This document shows positions 3,958-13,595 of a stretch of 64,000 nt of DNA, in pieces (the stretch's first letter is position 1; each line of letters opens with the position of its first letter). The notes under the pieces are model-generated. The model searched no databases and had not been told where the DNA came from. It saw nothing but the letters and a program-made list of their open reading frames with translations. Origin of the DNA: Rivularia sp. PCC 7116 (GTDB lineage Bacteria; Cyanobacteriota; Cyanobacteriia; Cyanobacteriales; Nostocaceae). A program made the position numbers and the translations under genes. The stretch covers positions 6,200,001 through 6,264,000 of the forward strand of contig NC_019678.1 in the NCBI RefSeq assembly GCF_000316665.1, given 5' to 3'.

Positions 3958-4071
3958 GGGCAGAAGGTGTTTGAGGAAATCTTAAATTAATCCAAAACAA
4001 ATCATTATTTATAGTAAATAGAAGTTTTCAGTTAAAAATATTTATTCTTAATTAAGAGTATAGCTAAAAAC

Positions 4072-4125
4072 AGCTAACTGCAAGAGAAATTAGATTTATA
4101 AATCTAATTTCTCTTGCAGTTAGCT
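4072..4125. repeat. perfect 54-bp palindrome
   Basis: Arms 4072-4098 and 4099-4125 are exact reverse complements (27 bp each) with no loop. It starts with AGCTAACTGCAAGAG. It lies 115 bases after the csx3 stop codon. It has no terminal T run, so it is not a standard intrinsic terminator on either strand, though it could act as one for csx3. Alternatives are a mini mobile element or part of a structured RNA. Confidence 0.9.
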
Positions 4126-4166
4126 ATGTTTACGATGAACGTACAACATGTACGTGATTCTATTTT

Positions 4167-4203
4167 GTCTTCAACTAATCAACTTAACCCAGTTGTAGGG
4201 GAA
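4167..4203. repeat. solitary diverged CRISPR-repeat-like sequence
   Basis: It aligns over its full 37 bases with the array repeat at 12788-13336, with one single-base gap and about 27 identities, including CAACTAATC and ACTTAA. The repeat's inner stem is kept: GACT/AGTC of the array becomes AACT/AGTT here, a compensatory pair change. No second repeat or spacer is next to it. It could be a relic of an older array or a regulatory repeat-like RNA near the cmr operon. Confidence 0.65.
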
Positions 4204-4862
4204 ACTATGATTTGTTTCATTGACTCCATTATAACGCAAATATAAATTTAATAAACAAATTATTTTTATTCGATTTTTTTATAACCTTTATTAATTACCA
4301 TAATCTAATGCTTTTAATTCTGTGAATTATTTTACTTCTGTTAATTTACTTTTATAGTCTTAATATTTTTATTAAAAGAAAAACTATAAGAGATAGTTAT
4401 TGTTATTTAAAGGTTATTCAAAATACAATTAATATCTGGTGCTTTTTAGTTTATAGGTAGCAAAAAGCAGTTATATCTATTTAGTAATAAATTACACGAA
4501 TTTTATTTACTCATTTCTACCCAAGTAGCACCGAATATGCTATAAAAGTACTTATTAAACCCAAGATGAGAATATCTTCTAATGGAAAGAAAAGGTTTAG
4601 AGCGTGTCTGCGTTTACAGGGCTTACTTAGCACTAACGATTAATGTTTAACACGTCCACGATTCATAAACGATTAACGTCTGACAAGTACGAGATAAATA
4701 GAGGAAATAAATCATGTTTGAATTCACTAGGTTTCATGAGAAACCTCATGTCGTTTTAAGTTGGCTTCTGCAATTTAACCAGCAGGTTAATTACTCCACA
4801 GCAATTGATAGGAAGCAAGAATTAAGAAGATTTAGCAATTTGTGTGTATGCAAGGGGGCTTT

Positions 4863-5129
4863 ATGCCTCTAAGCGCCTTAGTCTGTTGGGTGGTAATAAT
4901 TATTCTTGTTATTTTCTTTCAACCAGAAAAAATCAGTCAATTAAATTTGGAATATTTTGTGAATATTCTCATTGGTGGGTCTGGAACGCTTTCGGGGATT
5001 AATATCATCTATAAAGTGTCAAATTCACCACATTTGAGAAATTTATTAGGGTATGATGCCTTTACCGTATTTATTGGAGCATCCGTTGTTATTTGGATGT
5101 CTATTCAACAGATGCTAAAGCCTTTTTAA
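4863..5129 (+). CDS. small membrane protein upstream of cmr2
   Basis: 88 residues from the ATG at 4863, chosen because AAGGGGG lies 6 bases before it; an in-frame ATG at 4842 has no such site. There are three hydrophobic stretches: about residues 2-21, 34-50 and 66-82. No known domain is recognised. It is on the same strand as, and 200 bases before, cmr2, so it may be part of the type III module, in which membrane effectors are frequent, but it has no sensor domain of its own. It could equally be a passenger gene. Confidence 0.6.
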   Translation: MPLSALVCWVVIIILVIFFQPEKISQLNLEYFVNILIGGSGTLSGINIIYKVSNSPHLRNLLGYDAFTVFIGASVVIWMSIQQMLKPF

Positions 5130-5328: not shown

Positions 5329-7194
5329 ATGACAAATAAAATTTACACAGTAATTACCTTTGCTCCCGTGCAGGGGTTTATCGAAAAGTCGCGGAAGTTA
5401 CGAGATTTGTATGGGAGTTCTTATTTACTTTCTTACATATCTTGGGTGATTTGTAATGCTGCTGAAAATCATGGTTGTACAGTCATTTCTCCAGCTTCGA
5501 TAAATGTTACTCAGGGAATGCCAAACCAGATTATTATTGAAGGTAACTTCCCAAAAGGTGAAGCTCAATCAGTACTCTTAGAGGCTTGGAAATGCATTAC
5601 AGAGACTTGTCGAGAATGGATTGAAACAAATGTTGAAGTGATTGAAGGAAAGAAAGTTGATTATACTCCTTGGAGAAGAACCTGGGGTTTGTGGACGAAA
5701 TATGCGTGGGAATTTTTCTGGGTTCAGGGTAACGAAAAGCAAAGTATCAGTGATGTCAGGGAAAAGCTGAACGAAAAAAAACGCGCTCGCGATTGGACTG
5801 GGATAAACTGGCAGGGAGAGAGTTCTACCCTTTCCGGTGCAGATGGAATAGCATATCCAAAACTTGGTTTCAATTCCGACCCTCGCGAATATAATTACCA
5901 GCAGGAAAAGAACGATGTCAGAGCTTTTTATCAAGCACTCAGCGAGAAATTAGGGGAATCATTCATCAAGTCAGTTAGATTAAAAGTTCCTGATGAAAAA
6001 ATGAGCGAACGGAGCCAAGAATATGGAAAATCTTTTATCGACCCAGACGAAGAATTAAGCGTACCAGAGTTGATTAAACGATTGATTACCCATAATGTAA
6101 TTTCTGAAAAATTAACCGAACGACTCAAAAATGTTTTTGGCAATAATGGGATAATTCTTAAAAATCTAGCTCAACAAATAAATCAACTATCAGACGACCT
6201 AAATCCCACTACATTTAAAGATCTTAGCCGATTTAAAGACAATTTGTACACTGGTTGGTTTCAGGGTGATGGTGATAAAGCTGGTGAATTCTTGAAAAGT
6301 TTTGCAAACACACCAGAAGAAGCTCAAGAAACTCATAAATTTAGTGAAGAAATGAGGGAATGGGGTAGTTACTTTCAAGAATTACCAAAAAATCACGAGA
6401 TGAAAAATTGGCGTGTTATTTATGCAGGAGGTGATGATTTTTTAGGTGCTTTTTATAATAGAAAAAATGCAAATGATTGTGTAAATTTTTTCTCGAAATT
6501 TAAGAGCGATACTTGGAATCAACCGGAGCCAAAGAAAATAACTGTCAGCGTCGGTTTTGTCTGGGCTTCAGCTAATATTCCACAACGGGATATACTACAA
6601 CATTGCCGAGAAGCTGAGAAGTCAGCAAAAAGTAGCGGACGGGATAGAATTGCTTTTCGCATCTTGTTTAATAACGGTAATAATTTAGAATGGGTGTGTT
6701 CTTGGAGGTTATTAGAAGAAGGTTTGTTATCGAGTTATCGGGATAGGGAAGGGGGACAAAATTGGACGCATATATATAATGATGTCGCTGTTTTAGAATC
6801 CCGCCATGCTTTTGATAATCATGGTTTAAGTGTTGGATTGGGTTTACTTGAGATATATTTTCCTGCTTATTTGGATGTAATCAAAAACAAAAGTAAACAA
6901 TTACAACCCAAATATCTGGATTTAATAGAAACGATTGCGGAGATTTTAGGGAAAGAATCTATATACTACAAAGAAGTTATAGAAGTTATAGAAGAGTTAG
7001 AAGAGTTAGAAGCAGACAAACTCAACAAAGCTTCAACCAACTGGATAATTAACCTTGCAAGGAAAATTTTAGGGGAGAAGGATAATTACTACAAAGAAAA
7101 TACAGAAGAGTTAGACCCAGACAAACTCAACAAAGCATTAACCGATTGGATAATTAACCTTGCAAAAGTAGGATTTCATTTATGTCAGCAGTAG
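5329..7194 (+). CDS. cmr2: Cas10/Cmr2, type III-B large subunit with cyclase motif
   Basis: 621 residues from the ATG at 5329 (a TTG at 5305 is in frame but less likely). The start KLRDLYGSSYLLSY is typical of Cmr2. There is no N-terminal HD nuclease domain, which explains the short length compared with about 900 or more in HD-containing Cas10. The palm domain keeps GGDD (about residues 367-370 in YAGGDDFLGAF), plus an upstream GDGD at about 313-316, so it should make cyclic oligoadenylates when target RNA is bound. The C-terminus contains a tandem duplication: two copies of a segment ending DKLNKA.T.WIINLA. The 3' end overlaps cmr3 by 13 bases. Confidence 0.93.
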   Translation: MTNKIYTVITFAPVQGFIEKSRKLRDLYGSSYLLSYISWVICNAAENHGCTVISPASINVTQGMPNQIIIEGNFPKGEAQSVLLEAWKCITETCREWIETNVEVIEGKKVDYTPWRRTWGLWTKYAWEFFWVQGNEKQSISDVREKLNEKKRARDWTGINWQGESSTLSGADGIAYPKLGFNSDPREYNYQQEKNDVRAFYQALSEKLGESFIKSVRLKVPDEKMSERSQEYGKSFIDPDEELSVPELIKRLITHNVISEKLTERLKNVFGNNGIILKNLAQQINQLSDDLNPTTFKDLSRFKDNLYTGWFQGDGDKAGEFLKSFANTPEEAQETHKFSEEMREWGSYFQELPKNHEMKNWRVIYAGGDDFLGAFYNRKNANDCVNFFSKFKSDTWNQPEPKKITVSVGFVWASANIPQRDILQHCREAEKSAKSSGRDRIAFRILFNNGNNLEWVCSWRLLEEGLLSSYRDREGGQNWTHIYNDVAVLESRHAFDNHGLSVGLGLLEIYFPAYLDVIKNKSKQLQPKYLDLIETIAEILGKESIYYKEVIEVIEELEELEADKLNKASTNWIINLARKILGEKDNYYKENTEELDPDKLNKALTDWIINLAKVGFHLCQQ

Positions 7195-9627: not shown

Positions 9628-9849
9628 GAAGTAACAAGTAATAAGTAGTAAGTAAGAAATAATGGTTGAGGATTTATTTTTGAATAAACCTCCGCTCTGG
9701 ATGAGTCAGTAGCGTTATTACTGTCACTTTCTGTACAACAACAATAAAGCCTAAAGCCAATTTTACTAAACTTCTTACTTCTTACTTCTTACTTTTTACT
9801 TCTTACTTCTTACTTTTTACTTCTTACTTTTTACTTCTTACTTCTTACC
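9627..9849. repeat. inverted heptamer-repeat element, copy 2, inside the cmr operon
   Basis: The left arm of TAAGAAGTAA-type units starts right after the cmr5 stop; the right arm is a long CTTCTTACTT run (about 9769-9848) that ends at the start codon of the next gene. The design is the same as at 2699-2905. No ribosome site lies before the following ATG; the pyrimidine-rich arm takes its place. Confidence 0.75.
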
Positions 9850-11526
9850 ATGAATATTCCCGAACCTGCGAAAAAAGTCCCGATGCTATTCCGGGCACAA
9901 ATTGATGGACGCTGCCAAATTCAAAGATTAGTTCCTCGTAGAGAAGAACAAGACGCTACACGTTGGGCTTCGGAATGGGTAGAAAAAACTTATCCCCAAC
10001 TTCGCGAGTCTGCTGGTTTTGTTCAAACTCGCACCTATAATTTAACTTGGCGATTTATTACCAATAGCGGACAAGATGACGGTGTAACTCGTCCTGTAAT
10101 TGGTGCTAGGGGTTGGCCATTTTATCCTGGAAGTAGTATGAAAGGTATTTTTCGCCGCGCTTGCAGTCAAGAAGAAGCCGAGCGCTATTGCGGTAAATCT
10201 TTAAATGATGATTTCAAACCTGGAATTTTGCGCTTTCATGGTGGTTATCCCACCGATACTGCTTGGACGGAAGATTTAGTCGATATCGTTCATCCCCAGC
10301 AAGATTTCCAGGTAAAGTCTAATAAAAAGGATTCGGGTGCTTTTATTCAGATTTCTCTTCATCAACCAGAACTCAAATTTGGTATTTCTAGTACTGTTCC
10401 CTTAGATGACCAAGAATGGGAAGTTATTTGGAATATTTGGGAAAAAGCCATATCTACCGGAATTGGTAGCCGGGTTTGTGCTGGATACGGACAACCAGAA
10501 AAACATACTGGCAACGTACTTTATCGGACTAAATTAAAAGGTCAAGGACAAGCAGCCAAGTTAATTGACGGTACGGGAGAGTTTCGAGCCAACGTTTTCC
10601 GTGCAGCAGTAAGAGGTCACGCATTGCGGATTTTTGGGGGATTAACCAACGCAGACACCGCAGATAGAATCGTCAATAATTTATTTGGTGGAATTAAAGG
10701 ACAAGCCGTCATCGGATTATTAGGAATGAGTTTTCGAGTACTCACAGATAATCCAGGAGAATTTGGTAGAAAGGGTTATCTACAACCAACTTACGATATT
10801 GAAGGGGAATTAACTTGGTTGTTAGCAAGAAAATTACCCAACTCAGAACAAGAATTAGCATTGAAAAAATTGATTGGGGCTTTAACTCGATTTGCAATGA
10901 TTTTTGGTGGTTTTGGTAAATCATGGCGCAGAGCAGACCACCGCTTATTTTATGAAGAATACTACGAAAACCAATATAAATCATTAATTGGCTGTCATTG
11001 GCAGTGGTTGGGAGAGCGTTCCCTTGCTAATGATGTCAAAGTTCGTAAATTAGACCATGTAACCAAATTTATTGCCGAAATACAACAAATAGCCAAAGAA
11101 TGGATGCGACTTCAAAATATAACTCCTAATCCCGCTCAAAAAGCTGCTTGGAGAGAAACATGGCATCAAGATAATGTACAAATATGGGGACGAGAAGCAG
11201 AAAATAAAGAAGACTCCCGAGCTATCTTTTGGTTACACAAACCTTATCAAGAAGAAATTCGGGGAATACAATCGGAAGGTTCAATTTATCGTTCGTCAGT
11301 TACCGGACAAATGGGACAAATTGGTAGATTGTGGCATCGAATGTATCCTTTTGTTCGGTTGGTTAAAAATCCTGAAGATCCAAAAGGAAAACCAATTCCC
11401 AAAAAAACATTCAGATACTTGGAATTTTTGACTTTATTTCCAGATAATTCGAGGGAATCTCAGGATTTTATCAAATTCCTTAATTCACAACAAAATCGTT
11501 CTAACAGTTTTCAAAAACTGTGGTGA
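9850..11526 (+). CDS. Cmr6-Cmr1 fusion, type III-B RAMP subunits
   Basis: 558 residues with two RAMP units. The first half (about 1-220) has GWPFYPGSSMKGIFRRAC followed by a DIVHPQQDF motif, as in Cmr6. The second half (about 245-430) has FRAAVRGHALRIFGG and LFGGIKGQAVIG, as in Cmr1 (which binds the 3' part of crRNA and target at the complex head). Separate cmr1 and cmr6 genes are absent, and fused RAMP genes occur in cyanobacterial III-B variants, so this is best read as one protein capping the filament. The domain order (Cmr6 first) is read from the motifs. Confidence 0.78.
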   Translation: MNIPEPAKKVPMLFRAQIDGRCQIQRLVPRREEQDATRWASEWVEKTYPQLRESAGFVQTRTYNLTWRFITNSGQDDGVTRPVIGARGWPFYPGSSMKGIFRRACSQEEAERYCGKSLNDDFKPGILRFHGGYPTDTAWTEDLVDIVHPQQDFQVKSNKKDSGAFIQISLHQPELKFGISSTVPLDDQEWEVIWNIWEKAISTGIGSRVCAGYGQPEKHTGNVLYRTKLKGQGQAAKLIDGTGEFRANVFRAAVRGHALRIFGGLTNADTADRIVNNLFGGIKGQAVIGLLGMSFRVLTDNPGEFGRKGYLQPTYDIEGELTWLLARKLPNSEQELALKKLIGALTRFAMIFGGFGKSWRRADHRLFYEEYYENQYKSLIGCHWQWLGERSLANDVKVRKLDHVTKFIAEIQQIAKEWMRLQNITPNPAQKAAWRETWHQDNVQIWGREAENKEDSRAIFWLHKPYQEEIRGIQSEGSIYRSSVTGQMGQIGRLWHRMYPFVRLVKNPEDPKGKPIPKKTFRYLEFLTLFPDNSRESQDFIKFLNSQQNRSNSFQKLW

Positions 11527-12777: not shown

Positions 12778-12787
12778 CTAATTATTT

Positions 12788-13336
12788 TTATTCAACTAAT
12801 TCGACTTAATCCAGTCGGCGGAAGATGACCCAATCGAACCAAGCGACATCCCAGAATACAAGTTTCCAACTAATCCGACTTAATCCAGTCGGTGGAAGTT
12901 GCTGTCAATTTCTGACAAATTGCAAAATGTAACTAGTTTCCAACTAATCCGACTTAATCCAGTCGGCGGAAGAACCAATCCTCCAAACCAAGATAGTAAA
13001 GACTCTTGTTTCCAACTAATCCGACTTAATCCAGTCGGCGGAAGTTAAGTCTTCCTGAAAACTCGAATGCAGACTTAGCAGGTTTCCAACTAATCCGACT
13101 TAATCCAGTCGGCGGAAGTCTTTAACTACGCTCACTAAAGAAGTAGACAGCAAGTTTCCAACTAATCCGACTTAATCCAGTCGGCGGAAGAACTCTCAAT
13201 ATAAGATATTGTCATTGAACTAAAAAAGTTTCCAACTAATCCGACTTAATCCAGTCGGCGGAAGCCTTAGCATAATTCTCAAGAGAATCTGCCATTTGAG
13301 TTTCCAACTAATCCGACTTAATCCAGTCGGCGGAAG
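12788..13336 (-). CRISPR. CRISPR array, 8 repeats of 37 bp and 7 spacers
   Basis: Repeats start at 12788, 12862, 12936, 13008, 13082, 13154, 13228 and 13300. Spacers are 37, 37, 35, 37, 35, 37 and 35 bases. Each repeat has an inner stem CCGACT/AGTCGG with a 6-base loop. Read on the minus strand, the repeat begins CTTCCGCC and ends GTTGGAAAC, the usual crRNA orientation in cyanobacteria. The first repeat on the plus strand (12788) is altered in its first bases and in the stem, as expected for the leader-distal end, and the second has one change (GGTGGAAG). The array is thus transcribed leftward from a leader right of 13336. No Cas6 gene is nearby; in the related III-Bv system crRNA is matured by host RNase E. 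Confidence 0.97.
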
Positions 13337-13595
13337 ACCGTCCCTTGAAACCCTTGCATGATAAGGATTCTACAACAGGTTTTGACGGGTCTAAAAAAAA
13401 GGTTCATTTCAGCCTCGCTTATTGATAATTAGTTTCACTTGTTGCAAGATGTAAAACGCTGAAACCATTTATTGATAAAAATTTCGGCGATTTTGACGGA
13501 ACCCCCCTAGTTTTAGCTCTCGCTTCGACCCGTCAAAAAAACAAGCTCACAATCAAAAGATTAAAACGTTTACTTAGTTGTGTCTAGTTTTTATT
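13337..13595 (-). promoter_or_regulatory. CRISPR leader region
   Basis: This gene-free stretch sits on the leader side of the array. It holds a 12-bp inverted repeat, TTTTGACGGGTC at 13380-13391 and its complement at 13527-13538, a third partial copy (TTTTGACGG) at 13491, and a direct repeat TTATTGATAA at 13419 and 13469. These are candidates for leader motifs used in array transcription or spacer insertion. Confidence 0.7.

Follow-up and report, generated by a model that had tools for sequence, protein, structure and literature searches.

The window analysed here, a stretch of 64,000 nucleotides from Rivularia sp. PCC 7116, contains a CRISPR locus in which csx3-AAA is followed by a gap of 1.4 kb, the genes cmr2-cmr3-cmr4-cmr5-cmr6, a CARF-RelE gene and then an array of eight repeats (Table 1). 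The linked effector, cmr2-6, is of type III-B. The gap between csx3-AAA and cmr2 holds a lone CRISPR repeat, as well as a reading frame for a small hydrophobic protein, here called p95. Outside the window, the same genome (G000 in the comparisons below) has four more repeat copies about 9.5 kb upstream of the lone repeat and, about 16-23 kb upstream of it, a long array built from a related repeat, with about 100 matches in all.

The 8-repeat array and the long upstream array have different repeats. The leader-side motif GACGAACT, which is present at other arrays of its family, was absent by eye from the 8-repeat array, and this array near CARF-RelE may be leaderless. Other peculiarities of the window include a 71-nt imperfect duplication (86%) at the 3' end of cmr2 (6990-7060 and 7095-7165), short tandem repeats of the TTACTTC type in intergenic DNA (2862-2902 and 9754-9857), and an apparent single M48-type peptidase gene (35-511 plus 2396-2698) that seems to be split by an IS605/TnpB-like element (524-2047), both names being taken from reading of the sequence alone.

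Table 1 Positions of the features discussed, in window coordinates
Feature	Position	Strand	Remark
csx3-AAA	2968..3957	+	upstream neighbour of the lone repeat
Long perfect hairpin (4072-4125), then T5 on the minus strand	4066..4125	-	possible intrinsic terminator of the putative guide transcript
Pseudo-spacer	4132..4166	-	the 35 nt that adjoin the 3' end of the repeat on the guide strand; match to the target copy at positions 9-35, none at 1-7
Lone (ectopic) CRISPR repeat	4167..4200	-	guide-strand form CCCTACAACTGGGTTAAGTTGATTAGTTGAAGAC; limits 4167-4203 in the sequence-only reading
TATAAT hexamer	4228..4233	-	27 nt ahead of the repeat in the guide direction; might be a -10 box, but no good -35 accompanies it
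Short ORF, 38 aa	4643..4759	+	spans the target site
Target-like site	4669..4695	+	21/27 bases match the pseudo-spacer in direct orientation (sequence match)
p95, small hydrophobic protein	4863..5129	+	88 aa from this ATG, 95 aa from GTG at 4842
cmr2 (cas10)	5341..7194	+	opens the cmr operon; the lone repeat lies upstream
8-repeat array	12787..13337	-	repeat CTTCCGCCGACTGGATTAAGTCGGATTAGTTGGAAAC on the inferred guide strand

A lone repeat with a compensated stem

Related arrays read ...GTTGGAAAC on one strand and carry GACGAACT at their apparent leader end, and the crRNA tag of Synechocystis CRISPR3 is given as AUUGAUUGGAAAC (PMC3575380); on these grounds the minus strand is taken to be the guide strand at the lone repeat. 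An earlier, sequence-only reading of this DNA had noticed a resemblance to the array repeat (about 27 of 37 bases) and a stem kept by compensatory change, and both observations hold. Aligned globally, the element agrees with the repeat of the 8-repeat array in 29 of 39 gapped columns and with the commonest array repeat of relatives in 28 of 36. The stem is CAACT/AGTTG, as compared to CCGACT/AGTCGG in the array, so that a change from G-C to A-U is compensated, one outer pair is gone on both sides, and GACT/AGTC-like stem bases are shared with the window's array. The tag is GTTGAAGAC where arrays have GTTGGAAAC, its end being changed from GGAAAC to GAAGAC (two of the last six bases). When the 64 kb were scanned with three queries, namely the repeats of the window's array, of the genome's long upstream array and of the relatives' arrays, the lone repeat was the top match outside the array, with a score of 37 against 32 for the next one and 60-74 for the array copies.

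The exact stem-plus-tag core, sought as a pattern with no mismatches allowed, occurs in none of the 387 other genomes of a sample of the order (n=388), arrays included; the compensated change is thus unseen in any sampled array. Inheritance of the repeat from another array type was considered and is unsupported, the exact CAACT/AGTTG stem core being found in no other genome of the same sample. Over nine repeats (six lone and three from arrays), 92% of the stem pairs are standard and two pairs show changes on both sides. With these nine related rows, which are few, shuffling equalled the covariation score in 6 of 500 cases, the number of doubly changed pairs in 61 of 500 and that of pair types in 462 of 500. 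Against Rfam, all scores of the element were below the gathering scores of the families, mostly microRNA models on the hairpin.

The sequence-only reading had also seen no second repeat, spacer or array around the element. No second repeat was indeed found near 4167-4203, but a spacer-like stretch adjoins the repeat on the minus strand. A CRISPR array comprises at least two repeats with spacers; a single repeat is present at 4167-4200.

Lone repeats upstream of cmr2 in other cyanobacteria

Searches with p95 led to related loci. Among 217 genomes of the family, at least four (G000, G066, G492 and G516) gave matches at E<1e-20, and in each of them a single repeat, on the same strand, precedes p95; none of 13 weaker matches has cmr2 within 1.5 kb. 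At least 17 of the 388 genomes of the order sample have a p95 match, with one further case adjoining cmr2, G195, which belongs to another family and also has a lone repeat. In a class sample of 388 genomes, at least 13 of which match p95, no further p95-cmr2 locus appeared among the matches listed. Since these searches covered the best candidates per genome, up to 22 for the family and up to 13 for the order and the class, homologues may be missed. All five p95-cmr2 loci found have the lone repeat upstream in the same orientation, but it is present in none of nine csx3-cmr2 intergenic regions without p95, so that conservation in related loci, which the sequence-only reading had named as a check, extends to the former set and not to the latter. 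In those nine regions, cmr2 starts about 160-475 bp after csx3; the gap is longer in the window and in G066, both with p95. A lone repeat 1.2 kb upstream of cmr2 was also found in Nostoc sp. LEGE 06077 (L161), which lacks p95, and p95 is present in the other five of the six loci in which a lone repeat is combined with a self-match. The best 80 of 172 named cmr2 loci did not yield p95.

For p95 itself, as well as for a 104-aa ORF of related loci, no informative family match was obtained. The idea of p95 as a CRISPR-specific family was abandoned, the other homologues checked, beyond the five, being without cmr2 within 1.5 kb. Homologues of p95 outside CRISPR loci stand beside other small ORFs (L220, L222, L225); in L225 this neighbour has glycine-zipper matches below the Pfam cut-off, and a psaA/psaB gene is near both in L220 and in L225.

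Identity between G000 and G066, G492 and G516 amounts to 30, 28 and 28 of 37 positions in the lone repeat (76-81%), 26, 25 and 26 of 41 in the pseudo-spacer (61-63%) and 28, 26 and 25 of 59 in the hairpin, with 17-24 of 50 and 31-33 of 63 in the outer flanks (34-52%), figures that partly reflect alignment fitting; the p95 proteins are 37-43% identical. Re-seeding from arrays could be a partial source of the conservation of the repeat, and in G516 the lone repeat has the same CTATTCC variant as the array of that genome; the stem bases that the window's lone repeat shares with its own array point the same way. The element might also be a relic of an old array, now decaying, whose last spacer was derived by chance from the operon's own leader and whose stem compensation is due to luck or precedes the decay. 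The altered tag in the window and a degenerate solo repeat in L047, at the place of the window's array, are in line with such a history, but against it the repeat has been retained in every p95-cmr2 locus found, including the one from another family, its stem pairs are kept despite sequence change, and it appears better conserved than its flanks, which would not be expected of a decaying relic.

Hairpins follow the spacer in G000, G066, G492 and G516. The terminator scan reports that of the window on the plus strand too, and among G000, G195, G492 and L161 it gives a guide-strand terminator after the spacer in the window only; for G492 and L161 no terminator is reported there on the guide strand, and for G195, where a stem with T5 was seen by eye about 80 nt beyond the spacer, one is reported on the coding strand only. 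A conserved promoter for the lone-repeat gene was not found, nor any promoter above chance, in the window, G195, G492 and L161. The scan of the window leaves the TATAAT hexamer unreported and finds nine promoters where 7.4 are expected. The strong hairpins at the same place in four loci could suggest a structured RNA or a terminator after csx3 that merely looks like a repeat and is never loaded into Cmr. However, the lone repeat of G492 is not degenerate at all and is identical to the commonest 36-nt array repeat of the relatives, the 14-kb locus of G492 has no csx3, and a terminator does not predict the antisense matches described below, which makes this explanation highly improbable.

Matches between pseudo-spacers and linked genes

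In the five p95 loci and in L161, the spacer-like stretch next to the lone repeat has a matching site located between this repeat and cmr2. The orientation is direct in every case, so that a guide made from the stretch would run antisense to the sense transcript (Table 2). In the p95 loci the sites end 633-874 nt upstream of cmr2, and the L161 site stops some 15 nt short of the ATG that opens a ParE-type toxin gene. This gene has a ParE_toxin match above the Pfam cut-off and is preceded by a Phd/YefM-like gene, the Phd match of which is below the cut-off.

Table 2 Matches of the six spacer-like stretches to their linked sites. Array spacers were 1,188 in number; p (downstream) is from 1,000 shuffles against the downstream region, and p (both sides) from 300 shuffles against 5 kb on both sides in both orientations
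Locus	Best match	Score	Array spacers scoring as high	p (downstream)	p (both sides)	Paired at positions 1-7 (of 7)	Paired at positions 8-35 (of 28)
G000 (window)	21/27	24	47	0.033	0.163	0	21
G066	25/29	36	0	0	0	2	23
G492	28/28	56	0	0	0	3	28
G516	20/25	23	67	0.007	0.04	4	19
G195	19/21	32	0	0	0	2	22
L161	27/33	33	0		0	1	23

As a control, 1,188 array spacers from 63 loci were scored, giving a maximum of 28 for same-strand and 31 for inverted matches, so four of the six lone guides lie above all of them; the control regions were smaller (mean 5.9 kb versus up to 9.9 kb for the lone guides), but trimming the latter to 2.9 kb per side left all six scores the same. The window's own match (21/28) is weak alone, its shuffle p being 0.05 within the 4-kb csx3 locus. 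The case of the window therefore rests on homology to the other loci: place and orientation are shared, and the target falls within a small ORF with a KRLT peptide; this peptide of the 38-aa ORF resembles the N-terminus of the 104-aa ORF found at the same place in G492 and G516. Searches of phage and plasmid collections with the window's pseudo-spacer gave no match at E values up to 1, and its best local match is the leader of its own operon. Since G066, G492 and G516 are close relatives, the independent guide-target cases number three or four. The target match of G195 is unrelated in sequence to those of the other loci, and among the six loci the spacers of G195 and L161 match their own locus only; that of G516 fits the sites of G492 and G066 better than its own.

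The paired sites could alternatively be operators for a DNA-binding regulator, with a repeat beside one of them by chance. The sites of G492 are palindromic (GTTAAACGTTTAAC) and the window's pseudo-spacer contains ACGTACA-TGT-TGTACGT, as operators might; yet no palindrome was seen by eye in the G195 site, the L161 site or the window's target copy, and the matches are always direct and always adjoin a repeat. Moreover, the G492-type 24-mer, with up to three mismatches, is found five times in these loci and elsewhere gives four single 3-mismatch matches in 217 genomes, which counts both against operators and against a dispersed repeat. The dispersed repeat was rejected, and operators are regarded as very unlikely.

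Lone repeats were also sought within 6 kb upstream of cmr2 for the best 80 of the 172 named loci, in 151 loci and in 40 loci, sets which overlap; one repeat library held only repeats with a GGAAAC end and therefore says nothing on the constancy of that tag. Local targets were absent for the lone repeats 300 nt upstream of cmr2 in L271 (p 0.94; the same element is at 5699 in L258) and 4.4 kb upstream of it in L177 (p 0.46), and no fitting target was found for a lone repeat in L254 (p 0.62), for those at locus ends in L167, L175, L052 and L088, or for repeat-like sequences upstream of cmr2 in L180 (7619-7653) and L251 (3139-3173), which are directly followed by a terminator-like hairpin. In these last two cyanobacteria the stem is CCAA/TTGG instead of CCGA/TCGG, and in L271/L258 the outer stem pair is compensated and a hairpin comes right after a spacer of about 30 nt. 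L168 (p 0.01) was set aside as a guide-target case because its match is gapped and 4.4 kb distant. A weak repeat-like solo in L200 (near 7543 and 8739) has an inverted spacer match some 260 nt ahead of cmr2 (p 0 of 300), the direction of which is opposite to that in the other loci and does not fit, and a further weak solo lies in L192.

The lone repeats without a local target (L271, L177) and the match of G516, reduced to 19/28, would be natural for relics of arrays, but G195 and L161 provide two more guide-target pairs of different sequence, which a relic does not lead one to expect. On balance, decay of an old array is an unlikely, though not a far-fetched, account of the element, and the lone repeat is probably not a mere relic. 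The sequence-only reading had left a choice between a functional RNA element and the last trace of an older array; it is the first option that is favoured, by conservation in the p95-cmr2 loci. The key to interpreting the element, a neighbouring spacer-like sequence antisense to the operon, had escaped that reading.

A candidate type III guide and its relation to known systems

The pairing is distributed unevenly along the guides, positions 1-7 of the spacer being paired in 12 of 42 cells over the six loci and positions 8-35 in 136 of 168 (Table 2). In the Cmr complex of Thermus, as described in PMC8376896, target binding begins at the 3' end, the first seven spacer nucleotides form the Cas10-activating region, and mismatches at positions 1-7 spare RNA cleavage and reduce the output of cyclic oligoadenylate. 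Of 23 long chance matches, 12 also begin at position 8 or later, and a match start at this point is only mild evidence. The Synechocystis CRISPR3 crRNAs are reported to be 48 and 42 nt long with a 13-nt tag (PMC3575380), which leaves a spacer of 35 or 29 nt and fits with an end near position 35.

With modest confidence, we favour the explanation that the lone repeat and the next 35 nt on the minus strand constitute a small gene encoding a regulatory RNA that resembles a crRNA and would be a type III-B analogue of CreA and CreR. Weighing against this explanation are the weak match of the window itself, its altered tag, and lone repeats such as those of L271 and L177 that have no local target. 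The guide RNA would start upstream of the repeat on the minus strand and be processed near GATTAGTTG. The crRNAs of III-Bv systems are processed by RNase E. The repeat would supply the crRNA tag recognised by the type III-B (Cmr) complex, and the pseudo-spacer would pair with sense RNA from the leader of the p95-cmr operon, at 4669-4695. Cmr loaded with this guide may then bind, and perhaps cut, the leader RNA, so that expression of p95 and cmr would be limited. Because spacer positions 1-7 are unpaired, there would be little or no activation of Cas10, and autoimmunity would be avoided. Transcription, loading, repression and the lack of Cas10 activation are all steps that we infer from sequence comparison.

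Several known systems resemble the one proposed here. CreA of CreTA, of type I, has an ectopic degenerate repeat or repeats linked to cas genes (PMC8501985, PMC9458426). The present elements likewise are ectopic repeats linked to cas genes, degenerate except for the intact repeat of G492, and both kinds are partly complementary to the 5' region of a linked gene, which for CreA is toxic and for L161 encodes the ParE-type toxin; this partial complementarity exists in all six loci, in four of them beyond every control and weakly in the two others, including the window. However, in the accounts of CreA cited, the guide acts with type I Cascade on promoter DNA and mostly has two repeats, whereas here the effector is type III-B, the repeat is single and the guide would be antisense to a transcript. 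CreR, known from types I and V-A, relies on Cascade or Cas12a to act at the cas promoter (PMC12737573). It shares with our proposal a crRNA-like RNA aimed at the host's own cas operon, but its site is the cas promoter, whereas the sites of the five p95 loci are 633-874 nt away from cmr2, on its upstream side, and would be recognised as RNA. Those guides are defined by an effector that works on promoter DNA, either Cascade of type I or Cas12a of type V-A; as the effector here is of type III-B, the element is not filed as a member of CreA or CreR.

Likewise, the scaRNA of Francisella, which works with Cas9, is described as a degenerate repeat joined to a short segment that is complementary to part of a 5' untranslated region (PMC9458426), much like the element of the window, but its target is a lipoprotein operon rather than a cas operon. 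Racr RNAs are phage-encoded solitary repeats that act as inhibitory repeat mimics, as outlined in PMC10651486; the solitary repeat is common to both, but Racr is viral and inhibitory, whereas here the repeat is located inside a cas locus with a self-matching spacer. No type III guide of the CreR or CreA kind was found in the open-access literature among the matches listed, and the review PMC12737573 assigns CreR to types I and V-A.

In CRISPR types that target DNA, repeat-derived guides are known to serve self-regulation and addiction. More tentatively than for the guide gene of the window itself, it may be proposed that type III systems have CreR/CreA-like guides of their own, in which single ectopic repeats would encode an RNA that steers Cmr towards the leader of its own operon or the mRNA of a linked toxin, with pairing confined to positions 8-35 and silencing without Cas10 signalling. 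An RNA-targeting counterpart of the known guides would show how type III systems act on host transcripts without cyclic-oligoadenylate signalling, and the loci found in this analysis are concrete places for testing such control at the RNA level. If the proposal is true, the separation of target cleavage from Cas10 activation that is seen in vitro would have a natural use, and the guides would amount to a post-transcriptional form of CRISPR self-control, and possibly of addiction, that operates on RNA.
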